Source of the DNA: Lachnospiraceae bacterium | GTDB taxonomy: Bacteria > Bacillota_A > Clostridia > Lachnospirales > Lachnospiraceae | Reading direction: 5' to 3' | Assembly: GCA_024699595.1 (NCBI GenBank) | Contig: JAILPG010000263.1 | Location: 1 to 8,395 of the forward strand | Length of the DNA stretch: 8,395 nt | Shown here: piece after piece, positions 222-8,395 of the stretch | Layout: every line of letters begins with the position of its first letter | Position numbering within the stretch: the first letter of the stretch is position 1 | The notes under the pieces: generated by a model | Told to the model about the DNA's origin: nothing | Seen by the model: only the letters and a program-made list of their open reading frames with translations | Database searches by the model: none | Translations under genes and position numbers: made by a program

Positions 222-260
222 TGCAGGGTGTTCTATCCAAGAATATTCCTGCATTTTTTT
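222..260 (+). terminator. possible Rho-independent terminator for the HAD gene
   Basis: TGCAGG at 222-227 pairs with CCTGCA at 248-253, with inner TTCT/AGAA pairing (231-234 with 240-243) separated by an internal loop, followed at once by seven T at 254-260. It lies 52 bases after the phosphatase stop and overlaps the 3' end of the opposing cytidylyltransferase gene. The stem is imperfect and only moderately GC-rich, and the opposite strand lacks a T-tract, so it would act on + strand transcription only. Confidence 0.4.
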
Positions 261-991
261 AGGTCGATATCCGTAGTGACTTTAAAGTTGTTCTCATCGC
301 CGGGGATTATGGCGATGTCCAATCCGGCTCTTATCGCAGGTTCGGTGGAGCCGTTGATCTTAAGGATATCATCGGGAAGCAGAGCCTTTGTAGCCTCAAG
401 ATATTTTTTAAGCCTGAAAGCTTCGGGTGCCTGGCCTGCATATATCTTGCTCCTTTCAAGCAAAGAGGTGACAGATACGCCATCCTCTGAGAGGTAAACG
501 GTATCCTTCATGGGAAGTGCAGGCATCGCACCGTCGTGAATGGCGCAGGCATCTATGCAGCGCTCAAGCAGCTCTGCGCTTACAAAGGGTCTTGCGGCAT
601 CATGCACTATCACGATATCGTCCGCAGTATCGGACTCCGCGGCAGCTGAATCCGCGCCGCTTGTATATGCAGTATCCGATCCCTTGCCGGTATGCCTGCT
701 TATATCGCAAAGGCCGTTATAGATGGACAGCTGTCTGTTTTTCCCGGGATCTGAAAAACCGGTGAACTTCTCCGTAAACTCATCTCCGATAAGCGCTTCT
801 GCGTCTGACAGTATCTCATCTCTCCACTTTTCATCCGCAGTTATATGTATCCTGTCGATCAGACTACATGAAAGCACAGCCTTTATGCAGTGGCTGATCA
901 TCATGTGTTTTCCGATCCTTATGTACTGTTTGGGGATGTCGGAGCTTATCCTGGTGCCGACCCCTCCTGATAATATCAATGCGGTATTCAT
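233..991 (-). CDS. IspD/TarI-family cytidylyltransferase (candidate polyol-phosphate cytidylyltransferase)
   Basis: This 252-residue cytoplasmic protein belongs to the IspD family, which transfers CMP from CTP to a polyol phosphate (methylerythritol 4-phosphate for IspD, ribitol 5-phosphate for TarI). Seen directly: the nucleotide loop SGGVGTRISSDIPKQY at residues 8-23, HDAARPF at 130-136, QAPEAF at 187-192 and the C-terminal TTDIDL at 239-244. The GGVG form of the loop resembles the ribitol-type enzymes more than housekeeping IspD, and the gene follows a polyol-phosphate dehydrogenase in the same direction, 119 bases away. Together these suggest synthesis of a CDP-polyol (inference). ATG at 989-991 is preceded by AAGGGAAC (minus strand, 997-1004), a moderate ribosome binding site. 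Residues about 99-124 form a Ser/Ala/Asp/Thr-rich stretch just before HDAARPF that is longer than usual. It could alternatively be the cell's IspD. Confidence 0.85.
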   Translation of the reverse strand: MNTALILSGGVGTRISSDIPKQYIRIGKHMMISHCIKAVLSCSLIDRIHITADEKWRDEILSDAEALIGDEFTEKFTGFSDPGKNRQLSIYNGLCDISRHTGKGSDTAYTSGADSAAAESDTADDIVIVHDAARPFVSAELLERCIDACAIHDGAMPALPMKDTVYLSEDGVSVTSLLERSKIYAGQAPEAFRLKKYLEATKALLPDDILKINGSTEPAIRAGLDIAIIPGDENNFKVTTDIDLKKCRNILG

Positions 992-1110: not shown

Positions 1111-2157
1111 TCACATCTCACACATTATCTTTATATAGTCTTCCGTCTTATCCCGCATTATCAGAAATCCCTTCTCTATATCCTCTATTGAGAAGCGATG
1201 GGAGATGAGGTTTTCGGGATGGATGAGTCCGTCGCGGAGAGCACCCGCCACATACTGCCAGTCATCGTCATCACTCTTAAAGGATGAGTTCCAGGTGCCG
1301 TGAAGGGTCAGCTGGTTCCTTAGGATCTTCCAGTATATGTCCCGCTTAAGTCCCATATCGGAATGAGGATTCCCTACAAGACAGATGCGGCCCTTTGGAG
1401 CGGAATATTCAACTGTTTCACCGTAGGTCACTTCATTTCCGACTACCTCGAAGGATACATTTACTCCGTAATCCCCAGTCTTTGAGAAGATCCATTCTTT
1501 TACGTTATCCTTTCTGAGATTACAGAAGTTTTCCTGCTTGAGGCCTAGAAGGAGGGCTTTTTCTTTCTGGATGTCATGATTTCCAACAACCAATATTTTT
1601 TCATGTCCCATGGACAACAGGTGCATGAGGATGAAGAGCCCTATGGTGCCTGCACCGTAGATTGCGATGGTCTCTTCTTTTTCCATATCACCTATCTGTC
1701 TGATCGCATGACGGGCTACGGACATCGGCTCAAGCATCGCGGCCTGTTCAAAAGACACGCCGCCTGAAAGCTCCATGAGATTCCACTCGGGGACGGCTGC
1801 ATACTCGGCAAAGCCCCCGTTGCATCTTGATCCGAGGTAGTTATAATGCTTGCACATCTCGTACTGTTTATTAAGGCAGGGTGTGCATTCTTTGCAGGGA
1901 ATGAGTGGGAAGATGCCGACTTTTTTTCCTGACCATCTGTCGGATACATCCTTTCCGCATTCGACTACCTGGCCCGAGAACTCGTGCCCTATGATGAGCG
2001 GCATGTTGTGAGCTCCGTCCTTATAGACTCTCGGGATGTCAGAACCGCAGATACCGCAGTTTTTTACCCTTACTATGACTTCGTGCTCTCCCGGAACCGG
2101 TTTATCCGCTTCCTGCAGTCTGAAGTCTGCTATATCATTTAATATCCATGCTTTCAT
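1111..2157 (-). CDS. zinc-dependent polyol-phosphate dehydrogenase, galactitol-1-phosphate 5-dehydrogenase (GatD)-like
   Basis: This is a 348-residue medium-chain zinc dehydrogenase, the usual length for the family, which interconverts a polyol (phosphate) and its ketose using NAD(P). Seen directly: catalytic zinc ligands Cys37 in GICGSD and His58-Glu59 in GHE; the structural zinc cysteines 88, 91, 94 and 102 in the pattern C-x2-C-x2-C-x7-C; and the Rossmann loop YGAGTIGLF. The N-terminal third (GICGSDIPR, GAH, GHEFSG, GSRCNGGFAEY) closely follows the E. coli GatD pattern as I remember it. It is the first gene of a minus-strand unit with the IspD-like gene, so it probably makes the polyol phosphate that enzyme activates, as TarJ does for TarI (inference). 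ATG at 2155-2157 is preceded by GGAGGGAA (minus strand, 2161-2168). Its true substrate cannot be read from sequence; other sugar-alcohol dehydrogenases are possible. Confidence 0.85.
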   Translation of the reverse strand: MKAWILNDIADFRLQEADKPVPGEHEVIVRVKNCGICGSDIPRVYKDGAHNMPLIIGHEFSGQVVECGKDVSDRWSGKKVGIFPLIPCKECTPCLNKQYEMCKHYNYLGSRCNGGFAEYAAVPEWNLMELSGGVSFEQAAMLEPMSVARHAIRQIGDMEKEETIAIYGAGTIGLFILMHLLSMGHEKILVVGNHDIQKEKALLLGLKQENFCNLRKDNVKEWIFSKTGDYGVNVSFEVVGNEVTYGETVEYSAPKGRICLVGNPHSDMGLKRDIYWKILRNQLTLHGTWNSSFKSDDDDWQYVAGALRDGLIHPENLISHRFSIEDIEKGFLIMRDKTEDYIKIMCEM

Positions 2158-2612: not shown

Positions 2613-3446
2613 ATGCCGGAGCATGTATTTGTTACAGCGGAAATAGGGATCAATCACAACGGGGACATGGAGATCTGCAAAAAGCTCATAGACTGGGCTG
2701 CCCTTTCGGGCTGCGATGCCGTGAAGTTTCAGAAGAGAACGATAGACAAGGTATATACGCAGGAATACCTCGACAGCTACAGAGAGAGTCCTTTCGGCAC
2801 CACGCAGAGGGCCCAGAAGGAGGCACTCGAGTTCGGACAGGCCGAGTATGACGAGATAGACAGATACTGCAGGGAAAAAAGGATCGAGTGGTTCGCGTCT
2901 GCATGGGATATCGACTCGCAGCTGTTTCTCAGGCAGTACAATCTCAGATACAACAAGGTTGCAAGCGCTATGCTTACCAATAAAGATCTGTTAAATGTGA
3001 TCGCGGAGGAGCGAAAGTATACTTTTATCGCGACCGGAATGAGCACTTACGGCGAGATCGATACAGCAGTTGATATCTTCAAACGGCACAACTGCCCCTT
3101 CGAGCTCATGCACTGCAACAGTACCTATCCTATGCCCAAGGAGGATGCGAATCTGAGGCTGATACCCGCGCTCAGGGAGAGGTATCACTGCAGGGTCGGC
3201 TACAGCGGACACGAGACAGGAAGAATCATATCGACATCCGCTGTCGCGCTTGGCGCTACGAGCATCGAGAGACATATCACCCTTGACAATACGATGTACG
3301 GATCCGACCAGGCCGCATCCCTCAATGTAAAGGATCTGATGAGGCTTGTAGAGGACATAAGGCTTGTGGAGCTTGTGCTCGGCGACGGCAGGAAGGTGCT
3401 CACGGAAAAAGAGCTTGCCACCAGGAAGAAACTGAGGGGCTATTGA
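2613..3446 (+). CDS. NeuB/SpsE-family nonulosonic acid synthase lacking a SAF domain
   Basis: NeuB-family enzymes condense phosphoenolpyruvate with a six-carbon sugar (ManNAc-like or its phosphate) to make a nine-carbon nonulosonic acid in the cytoplasm. Seen directly: AEIGINHNGD at residues 9-18, VKFQKR near the end of the second strand, HCNSTYP, the metal-ligand candidate His200 in GYSGHETG, and His221 in IERHITLD followed by GSDQAAS. The 21-residue spacing of these two histidines equals that of His215/His236 in the Neisseria enzyme as I recall it. At 277 residues it is about 60-70 shorter than typical NeuB: the TIM barrel is complete but the C-terminal antifreeze-like SAF domain, which normally caps the partner active site, is absent. 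Start ATG follows GGAGG (2600-2604). The stop overlaps the next gene's ATG by one base. The exact sugar substrate is unknown. Confidence 0.87.
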   Translation: MPEHVFVTAEIGINHNGDMEICKKLIDWAALSGCDAVKFQKRTIDKVYTQEYLDSYRESPFGTTQRAQKEALEFGQAEYDEIDRYCREKRIEWFASAWDIDSQLFLRQYNLRYNKVASAMLTNKDLLNVIAEERKYTFIATGMSTYGEIDTAVDIFKRHNCPFELMHCNSTYPMPKEDANLRLIPALRERYHCRVGYSGHETGRIISTSAVALGATSIERHITLDNTMYGSDQAASLNVKDLMRLVEDIRLVELVLGDGRKVLTEKELATRKKLRGY

Positions 3447-4132
3447 TGGCAAAAGGAGAAAGAACGATAGCCTTTATTCCGGTCAGGGGCGGCTCGAAAT
3501 CAATACCTTTAAAAAACATAAAGATGCTAAACGGTCATCCCCTTGTATACTGGACGGTCAGGGCCGCATCACAGTGCCGTTTTATCGACAGGGTCTATGT
3601 GTCGACGGACAGTAAAGAGATAAGGGATACCGTTGAAGGATTTGTGTTTGATAATGTGGAGGTCGTGGACAGATCTGAGCAGACCTGCACCGATACGGCG
3701 ACCACGGAATCGGCGATGATAGAGTTTGCAAATGCACATGAGGATTTTGACGATATAGTGCTTATACAGGCCACATCGCCGCTACTGCAGACATCGGATC
3801 TCGAAAGGGGTTACGAATTATATATGTCCAATAATACGGACAGCGTATTTTCCGGAGTCAGGAAAAAGCAGTTTCTGTGGCACGATGACGGCATATATGC
3901 AAAGCCGACCTACGATCCGCTTAACAGGCCGAGGAGACAGGATTATCCGGGCTACATTGTAGAGAACGGGGCCTTCTACATTACGGGAAGGGATGCTCTG
4001 TTATCAAGCGGATGCAGGATGTCGGGAAGGATAAAGACCTGCGAGATGAGCGAGTCCGCGATCTATGAGATAGACGAGCCGGAAGATTATATTGTGATGG
4101 AATCGATAATGCAGAACCTTTTTTCATCATAA
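3446..4132 (+). CDS. NeuA-family acylneuraminate cytidylyltransferase (CMP-nonulosonate synthetase)
   Basis: This 228-residue enzyme activates a nonulosonic acid with CTP to a CMP-sugar, the donor for sialyltransferase-like enzymes. Seen directly: the CTP-binding loop IPVRGGSKSIPLKN at residues 11-24, VSTDS for the second strand, LIQATSPLL, and ENGAFYITG before the C-terminus. Length matches stand-alone NeuA proteins without the extra C-terminal HAD or esterase domain. I chose ATG at 3446-3448 over TTG at 3443: the junction is TGATG, so the NeuB stop (3444-3446) and this ATG share one base, and GAGGGG (3434-3439) sits 6 bases upstream inside the end of neuB. The arrangement implies translational coupling and matched amounts of the two enzymes. 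The required phosphatase, if the pathway is phosphorylated, could be the HAD protein at the left edge (inference). Confidence 0.88.
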   Translation: MAKGERTIAFIPVRGGSKSIPLKNIKMLNGHPLVYWTVRAASQCRFIDRVYVSTDSKEIRDTVEGFVFDNVEVVDRSEQTCTDTATTESAMIEFANAHEDFDDIVLIQATSPLLQTSDLERGYELYMSNNTDSVFSGVRKKQFLWHDDGIYAKPTYDPLNRPRRQDYPGYIVENGAFYITGRDALLSSGCRMSGRIKTCEMSESAIYEIDEPEDYIVMESIMQNLFSS

Positions 4133-4198: not shown

Positions 4199-4867
4199 AT
4201 GTATAGTTTTGAGCTGATGGCGTCGATGATGTGCGCCAATTACAGAAATCTTGAAAAAGAGGTAAGGGATCTCGAAAAAGGCGGAATAGATTCATTCCAC
4301 ATAGACATAATGGACGGCCGTTATGTCCCCAACTATGCCATGTCCTTAAATGACATGCGCTGCATCAGGTCTCTTACGAAAAAACCTCTCGACGTGCACC
4401 TCATGGTAGAGCATCCGAACAATACGATCGAGCTGTTCATAAAGCCTCTGAAAAAAGGCGATACCATATACATTCATCCCGAGGCAGAGTATCATCCCTC
4501 AACCACACTTCAGAAGATCATAGACGGCGGCATCACTCCCGGCATAGCGATAAATCCCGGAACCAGCGTAGAGACGATATATGAGATGTTAAGGATCGTC
4601 GACAAGGTGCTGGTAATGACGGTCAATCCCGGAAATGCCGGCCAGATGTTCATGCCCTATGTTCACAAGAAGTTTGAAAAGCTGTTTGAGCTTAAGGACG
4701 AGATGGGCTTTGACATCTACTGGGACGGAGCCTGCGGAGCGGACAAGATCCAGAAATATGCACCGCTTGGCGTAAGGGGATTCGTGCTCGGCACCACGCT
4801 CTTATTCGGGAAAAAGCAGCCTTACGGCGAGACACTTGCCGCTATCAGAAGGCTGGAATTCGATTGA
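4199..4867 (+). CDS. ribulose-phosphate 3-epimerase family protein, closest in motifs to allulose-6-phosphate 3-epimerase (AlsE)
   Basis: This 222-residue TIM-barrel enzyme belongs to the Rpe family, metal-dependent cytoplasmic epimerases that invert C3 of a ketose phosphate. Seen directly: the metal and catalytic residues His34 and Asp36 in FHIDIMDGRYVPN, His67 in DVHLMV, and Asp176 in YWDGAC, all retained, plus VMTVNPGNAGQ at 139-149. Several segments (SMMCAN at the N-terminus, KPLDVHLMV, HPE, INPGTSVE, DGAC and VLGTTLLFG) follow the AlsE pattern rather than housekeeping Rpe, where the equivalents read SILSAD and DGGV. It lies 66 bases after the NeuA-like gene, in the same direction, and was therefore probably recruited to sugar-precursor supply for the glycan. 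It could alternatively be an ordinary Rpe. The substrate is not decided by sequence. Confidence 0.85.
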   Translation: MYSFELMASMMCANYRNLEKEVRDLEKGGIDSFHIDIMDGRYVPNYAMSLNDMRCIRSLTKKPLDVHLMVEHPNNTIELFIKPLKKGDTIYIHPEAEYHPSTTLQKIIDGGITPGIAINPGTSVETIYEMLRIVDKVLVMTVNPGNAGQMFMPYVHKKFEKLFELKDEMGFDIYWDGACGADKIQKYAPLGVRGFVLGTTLLFGKKQPYGETLAAIRRLEFD

Positions 4868-4989
4868 TCGGACGTTTCAGCCGGTCACAGATTGCAGGAG
4901 TTGGCGGCAGAGCCTGTTGCAGCAGCATGGCGACTGAGTCTGCTTTGAAACAATGCGGGCATCATAAATAATTGCAGGGGAAATATATC

Positions 4990-7900
4990 ATGGACAACAA
5001 CACATCTGCGGCTTTCACAGCCGTCAAAGAGGATTACCGGAAGTTATATAGCGGAAAGATAGTGATCGTTATAGTTTCCTACAATCTCTCCCATATGATG
5101 GAGGAAAACATAAAGAGCATCAGGGCCACGCTGCCTGAGGATCTCTATAAGATCGTCGTTGTAGACAATGCCTCCACGGACGGTGTCACCGATTATCTGA
5201 GAAGACAGGACGATATCATTCTCATAGAAAACGACAGAAATGTGGGCTTCGGATCGGCATGCAATCAGGGTGTCAGAACGACTGTGGGCACACAGTACGA
5301 GTCTGCGGATGTATTTTTACTGAACAACGATACGAGGCTTTGCGATAATTCACTGTTTTTTCTCATGAAAGCTCTGTATGAGGATGGAAAAATTGGTGCC
5401 TGCGGAAGCCTGTCAAACTACGCCGGAAACAGGCAGCAGATGAGCATTGATTTTGACAGGGCGGAGAAATATCTTGACTTTGCAAGGCTCATAAATGTCC
5501 CGAAGGATGACTGCCTTGATGAGAGGGTGAGGCTTTCCGGCTTTGCGATGCTCATTAGAAGGTCGCTTTGGGACGACATCGGAGGCTTTGATGAGGATTT
5601 TGCCCCGGGGTATTTCGAGGATGACGCTCTTTGCATGGAGATACTTAAGCGCGGCTATCATCTGAAGGTCGTAAACAACAGCTTTATCTATCATGCGGGC
5701 AGCCAGAGCTTTGCAAAGACCGATGATTACAAGACGCTTCTTAATGACCACAGAAGGCTGTTTATAAAAAAATACGGTTTTGACATAATCTCATATGCAT
5801 ACGGAAGCGACGTGCTGCCGATGCAGATCCCTTATAAGGAGGGTGACAGCTTCAGGCTCTTACAGCTTGGCGCGGGTCTCGGTGCAGATCTGAAGACTAT
5901 AAGAAACAGATTTAAAAATGCATATCTGGCAGGGATCGAGTCTAATGAGAGACTGAGGGAGATCGCAGGAAAGTCAGAGGATATCTTCGCCTCGGCAGAT
6001 GAGGCAAAAGTGAGTATTAAAGAGGACAGATTCAACGTCCTCATAATCGACCCCGATCTTATAAAAGTAATGTCCAGAGAGGAAAAAGAGACCCTTGTGT
6101 CCCTTTGTTATCCCGATGCGATCCTTATCAACAAAAATCCGGTATTTGAAAACTTCCCGTTTGAAAAAGTGAAGCTTATCGTGTGGGATATGGATGACAC
6201 CTTCTGGAAGGGTACGCTCAGCGAAGAGAATGTCACTATTCCAATTGAGAATATCGAGCTTGTAAAAGAGCTTACCAACAACGGCATCATAAACAGCATA
6301 TCCTCAAAGAATGATGAAGAGCCGGTCCTCAATGAACTGCGAAAGGCCGGCATAGAGGATCTGTTTGTGTTCAACAACATCAACTGGGAGGACAAGGGTT
6401 CACAGCTTGCCGAGAAGATAAAGAGGATGGGATTGCGTCCCGAAAATGTCCTCATGATCGATGATAATCAGAGAAACCTTGAAGAGGCAACCTATGTATC
6501 GCCCGGTCTTTTAACCGCTACTCCTGAGATCTTTCCGTTTCTCATAAATTATGTGCTCAAGCTCTATGCAAGCGACAGGGAGCATGTGAGGCTTGAACAG
6601 TACAGACTTCTTGAGAAAAAGACGGAGGCTATGGAACATTTTTCCTCAAAGGAAGATTTCCTGTACGAGAGTAAGATAAGCGTTACGGTCAACAGAAACT
6701 GTCTCGAAGAGCTTGACAGGATCGCAGAGCTGGTCGCAAGGACCAACCAGCTCAACTTCACCAAGAACAGGGATGACAAGGAACTGCTTACGAGGCTTGT
6801 CACAAACGACTGGAACGACAGCGGATACGTAAAGGTAAGGGATAAGTTCGGAGACTATGGCATCGTCGGATTTTACTGTTATAACAGGCGTGAAAAGAAG
6901 ATGGAGCATTTTCTTTTTTCCTGCAGGATACTCGGAATGGGTGTCGAACAGTACGTCTACAACCTGCTCGGATGTCCGGACTTTGAGGTAAAAGAGCCCG
7001 TTGCCGCCACACTTTCAAAGGATGCAGAAACACCCTGGATCAGTGAGGATACGGGCGCTGAGGTGTCCGTTGACAGGATAAGGGATAACAGGGTCAGGAT
7101 CCTGCTTAAGGGGCCCTGCGACATGAGCACGATAGAGCCTTATCTTACGGGCGGAAACATCACGACGGAGTTTAACTACATTAATGAATCAGGATTTGTA
7201 ACGACCGGGCAGAATCATACGGCTCATCTTAGGGAAAGCATAGAGCTTTCGGAAAAAGAGATCGATGAGATCTGCAAGGATGCTCCATTTATCATACACG
7301 GGGATTTCGAGACCAAGCTTTTCTCCGAGGAATATCACATAATCTGCTTAAGTCTTTTACAGGATCTGAGCGCGGGTCTTTACAGAAACAAAGAGACTGG
7401 GGCATATATTTCGTTCAGCAGCAAAAATTATGATCTGACTTCGCCTGAGTTCAGACAGAGATTCATTGATAAGACCGTGCAGGGGCACGACTTTGACTTT
7501 ACTGAGGAGATAATAGACAGATTCTCAGAAAAGTGGGAGTTTGTCGGAAATACTCCGCTTGATATGCTGCTTGCAAACCTTGACTTTATCTATGATAACG
7601 TTAAGGGCCATCCGCTGTTTATCCTGATGCTTGGGAGCGAGAAGGATTACGAGGGCTACAACGAGGAGTTTGCGGGGCTCTGCGACATCTACAGGGAGAT
7701 CAATCCGATCATGGAAAGCTTTGCGGCCGACCATGACAGAATCAGAGTCATAAATCCCACGGTGTACATTCATTCGCAGGATGACTTTGCCGACTGCATC
7801 AATCATTTTTCCAGGAATGTGTACTATGAGATTGCGGGAAAGATCTGCGAGTATATCAATGATGTGGTTGACGAGATCGCAAAGGAGAAGAGAGCTGCAT

Positions 7901-8395
7901 CAAAGAACATAGACAAGGCCACCTATGATGAGTTCATAAGGGGACTTTCGGGAGACGGGGCTGCCGGATCCGCGGGTGCTTCAGGGATTTCTGTCGGTGC
8001 TGCGGGAGGTATTGGTTCTGCGGCGCCTTCGGGAAGTGCGAACCCTGCAGAGAAGCTTGACCCATCGAGACTTATGGCTGCAATACAGAGCGCGACTTCG
8101 GTACAGCCTCTTACCTATGTCCCGGGTGATTTCGACGTGCTCATTGTGATCACGCCCGATGACTATGACAGGGTTAAGAGAAACTACAAAAATATCGCAA
8201 AATACATGCCGGGCCGCAACATAATCTTTATCGGAAGCGATAAGGTCGGGCAGAAGGTTAAGGATGACGCTGTCTCCGAGAGATTTAAGTTCATAAATGA
8301 AAATGACATCCTGCCGTTTTCAGATGTGGAGGCGGTGCTTAAGGATATACTGAAGCTTGATGATATCCCGAGAGGTATGACGGGATGGTATTACC
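4990..8395 (+). CDS. giant multidomain glycan-assembly protein: GT2 - methyltransferase-like - FkbH-like - SGNH-like - DUF6492-like (3' end outside window)
   Basis: From ATG at 4990 one frame stays open to the window edge, 1135 complete codons without a stop. The start is preceded by AGGGGA (4976-4981). Domains in order: GT2 glycosyltransferase (about residues 22-265), a degenerate methyltransferase-like Rossmann segment (287-384), a full FkbH-like module (393-670), an SGNH-like domain (701-957), a Gly/Ala/Ser linker (985-1020), and the beginning of a DUF6492-type glycosyltransferase (from about 1044). No signal peptide or membrane segment was seen, so it is probably cytoplasmic or peripheral. 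It is the fourth plus-strand gene after neuB and follows the epimerase by 122 bases that hold no gene or clear terminator. The likely job (inference) is to extend a glycan and attach an acyl decoration such as glycerate. Codon use looks like the neighbouring genes, so I see no sign of a recent join or frameshift. Confidence 0.9.
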   Translation, partial: MDNNTSAAFTAVKEDYRKLYSGKIVIVIVSYNLSHMMEENIKSIRATLPEDLYKIVVVDNASTDGVTDYLRRQDDIILIENDRNVGFGSACNQGVRTTVGTQYESADVFLLNNDTRLCDNSLFFLMKALYEDGKIGACGSLSNYAGNRQQMSIDFDRAEKYLDFARLINVPKDDCLDERVRLSGFAMLIRRSLWDDIGGFDEDFAPGYFEDDALCMEILKRGYHLKVVNNSFIYHAGSQSFAKTDDYKTLLNDHRRLFIKKYGFDIISYAYGSDVLPMQIPYKEGDSFRLLQLGAGLGADLKTIRNRFKNAYLAGIESNERLREIAGKSEDIFASADEAKVSIKEDRFNVLIIDPDLIKVMSREEKETLVSLCYPDAILINKNPVFENFPFEKVKLIVWDMDDTFWKGTLSEENVTIPIENIELVKELTNNGIINSISSKNDEEPVLNELRKAGIEDLFVFNNINWEDKGSQLAEKIKRMGLRPENVLMIDDNQRNLEEATYVSPGLLTATPEIFPFLINYVLKLYASDREHVRLEQYRLLEKKTEAMEHFSSKEDFLYESKISVTVNRNCLEELDRIAELVARTNQLNFTKNRDDKELLTRLVTNDWNDSGYVKVRDKFGDYGIVGFYCYNRREKKMEHFLFSCRILGMGVEQYVYNLLGCPDFEVKEPVAATLSKDAETPWISEDTGAEVSVDRIRDNRVRILLKGPCDMSTIEPYLTGGNITTEFNYINESGFVTTGQNHTAHLRESIELSEKEIDEICKDAPFIIHGDFETKLFSEEYHIICLSLLQDLSAGLYRNKETGAYISFSSKNYDLTSPEFRQRFIDKTVQGHDFDFTEEIIDRFSEKWEFVGNTPLDMLLANLDFIYDNVKGHPLFILMLGSEKDYEGYNEEFAGLCDIYREINPIMESFAADHDRIRVINPTVYIHSQDDFADCINHFSRNVYYEIAGKICEYINDVVDEIAKEKRAASKNIDKATYDEFIRGLSGDGAAGSAGASGISVGAAGGIGSAAPSGSANPAEKLDPSRLMAAIQSATSVQPLTYVPGDFDVLIVITPDDYDRVKRNYKNIAKYMPGRNIIFIGSDKVGQKVKDDAVSERFKFINENDILPFSDVEAVLKDILKLDDIPRGMTGWYY
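5053..5784 (+). other. GT2 glycosyltransferase domain of the giant protein
   Basis: Residues about 22-265 carry the rhamnosyltransferase-like GT2 pattern: VIVSYN (27-32), VVDNASTDG (57-65), NVGFGSACNQG (84-94), the DXD-equivalent LNNDT (111-115), and the acceptor-side GYFEDDALCMEILKRGY (207-223). All hallmark positions are present, so the domain should be active with a nucleotide-sugar donor. The donor is unknown. Confidence 0.88.
5848..6141 (+). other. methyltransferase-like Rossmann segment, short and probably degenerate
   Basis: Residues about 287-384 begin LLQLGAGLGADL (290-301), similar to the SAM-binding loop of the class I methyltransferase domains that often follow GT2 domains. GIES and LIIDPD follow where the second and fourth strands are expected. 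It is only about 100 residues long, roughly half a normal domain, so it may be a structural remnant rather than an active methyltransferase. Confidence 0.45.
6166..6999 (+). other. FkbH-like HAD-IIIC / acyltransferase module
   Basis: Residues about 393-670 contain all four HAD motifs: DMDDT at 400-404, SSKND at 438-442, Lys469 in NWEDKGSQ, and MIDDNQ at 489-494. The FkbH C-terminal acyltransferase-like part follows with ARTNQLNFTKNR (583 onward), DKFGDYGIVGF (618-628) and SCRILGMGVEQ (644-654) with Cys645. FkbH proteins take a glyceryl group from 1,3-bisphosphoglycerate and load it on a carrier protein. No carrier domain or gene is visible here, so the acceptor is unknown. Confidence 0.88.
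7090..7860 (+). other. SGNH-hydrolase-like domain
   Basis: Residues about 701-957 open with a beta strand and turn RILLKGPCDMSTI (703-715), in the place of the SGNH family's first block, and close with DDFADCINHFSRNVYYEI (931-948), which resembles the C-terminal Asp/His block with Asp935 and His939. The usual nucleophile Ser is Cys710-Asp711 at the best aligned position. The resemblance is to the SGNH-like domains of polysaccharide clusters (DUF6270-like). Catalysis is uncertain. Confidence 0.5.
7942..8049 (+). other. Gly/Ala/Ser-rich interdomain linker
   Basis: Residues about 985-1020 are almost entirely Gly, Ala and Ser with a few Ile, Val and Pro, and contain no predicted structure. They separate the SGNH-like domain from the last domain and mark a fusion boundary. 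Such simple-sequence DNA can vary in length between strains. Confidence 0.7.
8119..8395 (+). other. start of a DUF6492-type glycosyltransferase domain, truncated by the window edge
   Basis: From about residue 1044 the protein reads like the N-terminus of DUF6492 domains: FDVLIVITPDDYDRVKRN (1048-1065), a second strand NIIFIGSD, then FINENDILPF. The last visible residues PRGMTGWYY match the start of the family's conserved R-x-GWYYQQ segment. Members are putative glycosyltransferases. The rest lies beyond the window. Confidence 0.55.

Follow-up and report, generated by a model that had tools for sequence, protein, structure and literature searches.

A conserved GT2-FkbH-SGNH fusion protein of Lachnospiraceae, possibly involved in modifying a flagellin glycan

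Background

In Campylobacter jejuni, the modification of flagellin goes along with a nonulosonic acid and an fkbH gene (cj1302), the flagellin carrying di-O-methyl-glyceryl pseudaminic acid (PMC7099621 and PMC3068675, in the excerpts available). In our own reading, cj1302 would make the glyceric acid. We describe here a long reading frame on contig JAILPG010000263.1 of a Lachnospiraceae bacterium (the whole stretch of 8,395 nucleotides is called the window below), in which an FkbH module is joined to a GT2 glycosyltransferase domain and to an SGNH-fold domain, and whose relatives often lie close to flagellin genes. In C. jejuni, according to the same excerpts, the genes are separate. Flagellar O-glycosylation itself has been described in few Gram-positive genera, of which the available part of PMC13317340 names seven, Butyrivibrio among them.

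The FkbH/HAD-IIIC proteins of glyceryl transfer (TIGR01686; also OzmB, from the title of its reference only) have in common with the window's protein the HAD motif, the SCR motif and an above-cut-off score; they divert 1,3-bisphosphoglycerate, according to the title of the OzmB reference and to the discussion in the available part of PMC5318452. The window's module differs from them in being joined to a GT2 and a Cys-bearing SGNH domain, and no carrier-protein gene was found within 50 kb in its relatives. Fusions of GT2 with a methyltransferase, such as those of Bacillus safensis (L007) and of a Lachnospiraceae genome (L005), likewise place a Rossmann domain after the GT2, with a matching GxGxG region, whereas the window retains only about 100 residues of the methyltransferase part, with the FkbH and SGNH modules after it. 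Finally, BF1531 of Bacteroides fragilis (3slr) has an SGNH-like domain and then a HAD domain, the reverse of the order seen here. The present fusion was not found described in the titles or abstract openings of the literature searched, subscription papers being mostly outside its scope.

Results

The frame is free of stops over 1135 codons, from the ATG at 4990 to the end of the contig, and carries the following features.

4976..4981, + strand: ribosome-binding site AGGGGA, read from the sequence, 8 nucleotides 5' of the ATG at 4990
4990..8394, + strand: open reading frame of 1135 codons, running past the window end (the contig stops at 8395)
5059..5784, + strand: GT2 glycosyltransferase domain, residues 24-265, NND and EDD motifs conserved
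5842..6159, + strand: truncated methyltransferase-like Rossmann domain, residues 285-390, with GxGxG and E317 (secondary structure of the model, BLASTP)
6169..6504, + strand: HAD-IIIC domain of FkbH, residues 394-505, motif WDMDDTFWKG (TIGR01686 and TIGR01681 above cut-off)
6652..6969, + strand: C-terminal half of FkbH, residues 555-660, SCR motif (TIGR01686 covers 394-660)
6922..6924, + strand: Cys645 of the SCR motif, candidate acyl carrier (conservation)
7078..7899, + strand: SGNH-fold domain with Cys replacing Ser, residues 697-970
7117..7119, + strand: Cys710 of Gly-Pro-Cys-Asp, at the SGNH nucleophile position (conservation, model)
7804..7806, + strand: His939, candidate catalytic His of block V (conservation, model)
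7942..8124, + strand: Ala/Gly/Ser-rich linker, residues 985-1045, predicted disordered (predicted local distance difference below 50 for 985-1042)
8131..8394, + strand: beginning of a DUF6492 domain that the contig end interrupts, 46% identical to the first row of the DUF6492 alignment

A genuine fusion

A sequence-only reading of this DNA had taken the frame for one polypeptide, and comparison with its relatives bears this out. Of 325 homologues found, 120 were listed, and all counts of conservation and architecture given below refer to these 120, window included. The whole core (GT2, FkbH and SGNH modules) stands in one chain in 118 of them, and the ten full-core genes of one genus are all uninterrupted frames. 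The nearest homologue, P0002 (1297 residues), comes from another, longer contig and matches the query along its full length (100%) with 76% identity; because the window's linker is longer than that of P0002, the complete protein is probably somewhat longer than 1300 residues. One could still suspect an assembly artefact joining separate genes, as the window is a short contig ending inside the frame, and as the halves lie apart or side by side in some genomes, but P0002 and the 118 fused proteins speak against it; contradicted by independent assemblies, this explanation was rejected as extremely improbable. Homologues encoded separately do exist without being the rule: in G445 and G460 (L117, L118), a GT2 frame and an FkbH-SGNH frame are separate and side by side in a stretch of less than 5 kb, while G278 and G337 have FkbH-SGNH without a GT2 frame within the fetched stretch. 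These split forms suggest that the fused chain probably arose by the joining of two cooperating genes.

Of 79 genomes in the genus to which the Butyrivibrio loci L001 and L003 belong, 10 hold the full core, nine with an N-terminal DUF6492 and one without; in a second genus it occurs in two of four genomes (G002 and G477). In a family sample of 397 genomes, where only two candidates per genome were scored, 15 matched at 1e-60 and one, the centre genome, had the full core; G332 and G361, from the same sample, have GT2 and FkbH-SGNH in one frame. Among 398 genomes of the phylum, the FkbH-SGNH part was matched at 1e-30 in the centre genome only. A scan of genome contigs kept 80 loci, mostly with GT2 alone, L001, L002, L003 and L006 extending further; the full core was confirmed in the genomes of L001, L002 and L003, locus L003 itself holding the paralogue. 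Matches were found in 304 plasmid records, none of which covered 80% of the query.

Domains and conserved residues

The GT2 domain (PF00535) of the window protein scores 54.6 bits against a cut-off of 23.3, and its motif residues are kept in 119-120 of the 120 proteins. Residues 285-390 match by BLASTP the methyltransferase half of two GT2-methyltransferase proteins, with G294 conserved in 116 proteins, G296 in 118, G298 and E317 in 119 each and G315 in all. This methyltransferase-like domain, which the sequence-only reading had missed together with the change from Ser to Cys and the flagellin link presented below, retains motif I and the acidic residue within its hundred or so residues, and the window protein has no Pfam methyltransferase match.

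The FkbH module scores 147.7 bits with TIGR01686, against a subfamily cut-off of 146.65. The HAD pair is conserved (D400 in 119/120, D402 in 120/120) and Cys645 is a Cys in 120/120; the C-terminal half that carries it is, we presume, GNAT-like. In seven aligned FkbH-like proteins, drawn from the 304 plasmid records, the HAD and SCR motifs are common to all and the SCR Cys is present in 7/7. A search for the carrier-protein domain PF00550, which covered the genomes of 12 relatives and not the window (whose sequence ends at 8.4 kb), gave no match closer than 50 kb to the core, several contigs being short (8.8 kb in G477; core 4.7 kb from the contig end in G002). On the core contig, the nearest such domain lies at a distance of 53-100 kb in four genomes (G466, G470, G422, G450) and of about 660 kb in G402; in the remaining 7 of the 12, that contig has none. 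At another locus (L144), two carrier-type genes adjoin an FkbH. The missing nearby carrier gene bears on the mechanism, not on the assignment of the FkbH domain.

GT2 matches filled the structure search made with the whole-chain model, so the SGNH part was modelled alone, and it adopts the SGNH fold. Cys710 (120/120, and 19/19 rows of a second alignment) opens the helix after the first strand of this model, where, as we understand it, SGNH enzymes have Ser. The catalytic Ser of the block I GDS motif is not present, Gly-Pro-Cys being found in 120/120; two proteobacterial relatives have Gly-Ala-Cys and Gly-Gly-Cys, that is, the Cys is retained and the Pro changed. Since block I has no catalytic Ser, we do not class the domain as an SGNH serine hydrolase; its Cys also sets it apart from the O-acetyltransferases PatB and OatA, which we take to use Ser. 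His939, placed by sequence and by the loop preceding the last helix of the model (a predicted geometry), is found in 118/120, the other two being gaps, and in 19/19 rows of the second alignment, and N742 and H743 are found in 120/120. A sequence search of the PDB with the SGNH profile gave no match. On a Komagataeibacter plasmid (L138:4639-7725), an FkbH-SGNH relative lies within a protein annotated as a DUF1796 putative cysteine peptidase, beside glycosyltransferase genes.

Exchangeable end domains

The order GT2-FkbH-SGNH proposed by the sequence-only reading stands, yet the DUF6492 that it placed after the SGNH as part of this order is not typical: this domain is N-terminal in 36 of the 120 proteins and C-terminal in 3 (P0001, P0002, P0088). 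Other N-terminal extras are a short TPR-like region (39 proteins) and another domain of about 340-360 residues (12); at the C-terminus there are 3 LicD, 3 GT-D and 2 others, and 27 proteins have no extra domain, those with extras at both ends being counted twice. Two labels were given by eye: GT4-like, for the N-terminal domain of some 340-360 residues, and TPR-like, for the region of about 118; P0003 and P0080 have no Pfam match in these parts. In the window, where only about 85 residues of the DUF6492 are present, PF20102 is not matched in the Pfam search; the C-terminus of P0002 matches it at 30.5 bits (cut-off 22.9). A PDB sequence search with the DUF6492 profile gave no match.

A FastTree tree built from 118 cores gathers 34 of the 35 proteins with an N-terminal DUF6492 on a single branch (support 97), with P0101 elsewhere, and requires 20 architecture changes; the position of P0088, a long branch, is unsure. 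The window and P0002 group with the LicD-bearing P0003 and P0004 (support 100), apart from the branch with N-terminal DUF6492, so the window's DUF6492 was joined separately, at the other end. In two genomes of the second genus (G002, G477; L134, L137), DUF6492-type domains are encoded by separate genes near the core.

Flagellin genes near the relatives

In all ten full-core genomes of the first genus, the nearest flagellin gene is 2.6-10.5 kb from the core; at L001, the core comes after FliD, two flagellins and a GT2-TPR gene. The more distant fused relatives of G361, G442 and G332 have a flagellin-family gene 5-10 kb off. This frequent proximity suggests that the enzyme probably helps to decorate the bacterial filament. 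A NeuB gene adjoins the core in G435 and lies 4.5 kb off in G450; both genomes also have a cytidylyltransferase (by Pfam in G435, by eye in G450, as was the FliD-like label in L133) and an MptE-like gene whose sole NCBIfam match, PseD, is far below cut-off, and G435 has an Rpe gene about 27 kb from the core on the same contig. In G361 (L136:15842-19999), GT2, FkbH-SGNH and an MptE-like (PseD/Maf-type) domain form one chain; judged by sequence, this is a domain of flagellin-modification type fused to the same cassette.

A decayed paralogue (L129:1814-4210; L130:13059-15524) of 800-820 residues, 36-37% identical over the core, lies about 8 kb from the core in G450 and less than 0.1 kb from it in G470. 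In both aligned copies the GT2 is intact and D400 is kept; D402 is replaced by Glu or His, the SCR Cys by Tyr or Trp, Cys710 by Asn (G450) or Ser (G470) and His939 by Val or Arg, and about 30 residues with GQNH are missing. Similar partial paralogues are indicated, by match only, in G003, G435, G466 and G471.

Other genes of the window

NeuB, cytidylyltransferase and Rpe genes lie directly upstream of the fusion frame.

233..991, - strand: IspD/TarI-like cytidylyltransferase, possibly for ribitol-5-phosphate (PF01128; IspD and ribitol-5-phosphate models below cut-off)
1111..2157, - strand: zinc-dependent dehydrogenase, possibly TarJ-like (PF08240, PF00107; best NCBIfam match galactitol-1-phosphate 5-dehydrogenase, below cut-off)
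2613..3446, + strand: NeuB-type nonulosonic-acid synthase (PF03102, 232.5 bits; below NCBIfam equivalog cut-offs)
3443..4132, + strand: cytidylyltransferase of the NeuA/PseF kind (PF02348, 88 bits; best NCBIfam match PseF, below cut-off)
4199..4867, + strand: ribulose-phosphate 3-epimerase-like, Rpe (PF00834, 166.7 bits; NCBIfam rpe below cut-off)

Together, the Rpe, zinc dehydrogenase and IspD/TarI-like genes could make cytidine diphosphate (CDP)-ribitol, with assignments below NCBIfam cut-offs. The NeuB proteins of the window and of the G435, G450, G408 and G422 regions have 277-304 residues and the second NeuB of those four genomes 357-365; the shorter ones presumably lack the C-terminal SAF domain. 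In G435 (L126:12978-14147), a cytidylyltransferase and a HAD phosphatase share one chain; the phosphatase comes nearest to KDN-9-phosphate phosphatase (160.5 bits, cut-off 180), hinting at a nonulosonic acid of KDN type.

Discussion

We read the frame as a real, conserved fusion enzyme of Lachnospiraceae type whose product is a modified glycan, most probably one carried by flagellin, and give this reading as a whole a probability of about 45%. Its domains point to the assembly of a glycan and the addition of an acyl group as the most likely role. The GT2 domain would add a sugar to an acceptor; the FkbH HAD domain would take an acyl phosphate, probably 1,3-bisphosphoglycerate, and a glyceryl group would be loaded on Cys645; the SGNH-fold domain, through Cys710 and His939, would accept the acyl group and esterify the sugar; and the exchangeable end domain, here DUF6492, would add a further sugar. 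The assembly line of sugar, acyl group and sugar imagined in the sequence-only reading fits the intact catalytic residues and the exchangeable transferase-type domains. Since the search of the relatives gave no carrier-protein gene closer than 50 kb to the core, within the limits of their contigs, the enzyme's own cysteines would themselves carry the acyl group. The fusion, the identity of the domains, the conserved residues and the gene surroundings of the relatives are shown by the sequences; the substrates (glyceryl among them), the cysteine relay, the order of the steps, flagellin as acceptor and the activity of DUF6492 are inferred. A fuller version, in which a carrier-free relay runs from Cys645 to Cys710 to the sugar set by the GT2 of the same chain, the end domains decide how the flagellin glycan continues and the GT2-intact decayed paralogue works alongside, seems to us doubtful.

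Several observations weigh against our reading. No flagellin gene is found among the listed frames of the window, nor on the core contigs of G002 and G477 (8.8 kb only in the latter), nor on the contigs, some of them short, of the unfused forms, be it FkbH-SGNH by itself (G278, G337) or FkbH-SGNH and GT2 as separate frames (G445, G460). The ten flagellin-linked genomes cannot be counted as independent, since they belong to one genus and some of their loci (G001, G420) look alike. The whole-chain model has a predicted template-modelling score of 0.59 and leaves domain placement unsure; an SGNH fold with a Cys-His pair might catalyse hydrolysis rather than transfer; and FkbH chemistry, as cited in the available part of PMC5318452, loads a carrier protein.

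The same chemistry might instead serve a cell-surface polysaccharide or a teichoic-acid-like polymer, the window's genes supplying CDP-ribitol and LicD or Glyphos_transf attaching a polyol phosphate. The Rpe, dehydrogenase and IspD/TarI-like genes would suit this, as would the C-terminal LicD of three listed proteins, including P0003 and P0004 which group with the window, and the G002 core, accompanied by IspD-like, Glyphos_transf and NeuB-cupin genes on a contig without flagellin. However, the TarI and TarJ assignments are below cut-off, with both genes on the opposite strand, and flagellin is close in all ten full-core genomes of the first genus; we consider such an acceptor possible, if rather unlikely. 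One could also suppose that no acyl group is added, the HAD domain being a phosphatase acting on a sugar or nucleotide intermediate, the SGNH domain an esterase or a scaffold, and GT2 the sole transferase of the core. The SGNH fold is indeed common to many esterases by structure comparison, and the full-length paralogue, in which the second HAD Asp, the SCR Cys and His939 are all replaced (2 of 2 aligned) while GT2 is kept, indicates that the fold can persist without them, but the same residues are kept in 118-120 of the 120 proteins and the FkbH score lies above the subfamily cut-off, which makes this alternative unlikely in our eyes.

Conclusion

If our reading is true, the frame is part of a gene that encodes a new enzyme of glycan modification in bacteria of the rumen and gut, and would provide a testable case of FkbH chemistry operating without a carrier protein, in a cassette whose end domains have been swapped among related proteins. 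Flagellins are sensed by host innate immunity, and their decoration is therefore of interest.

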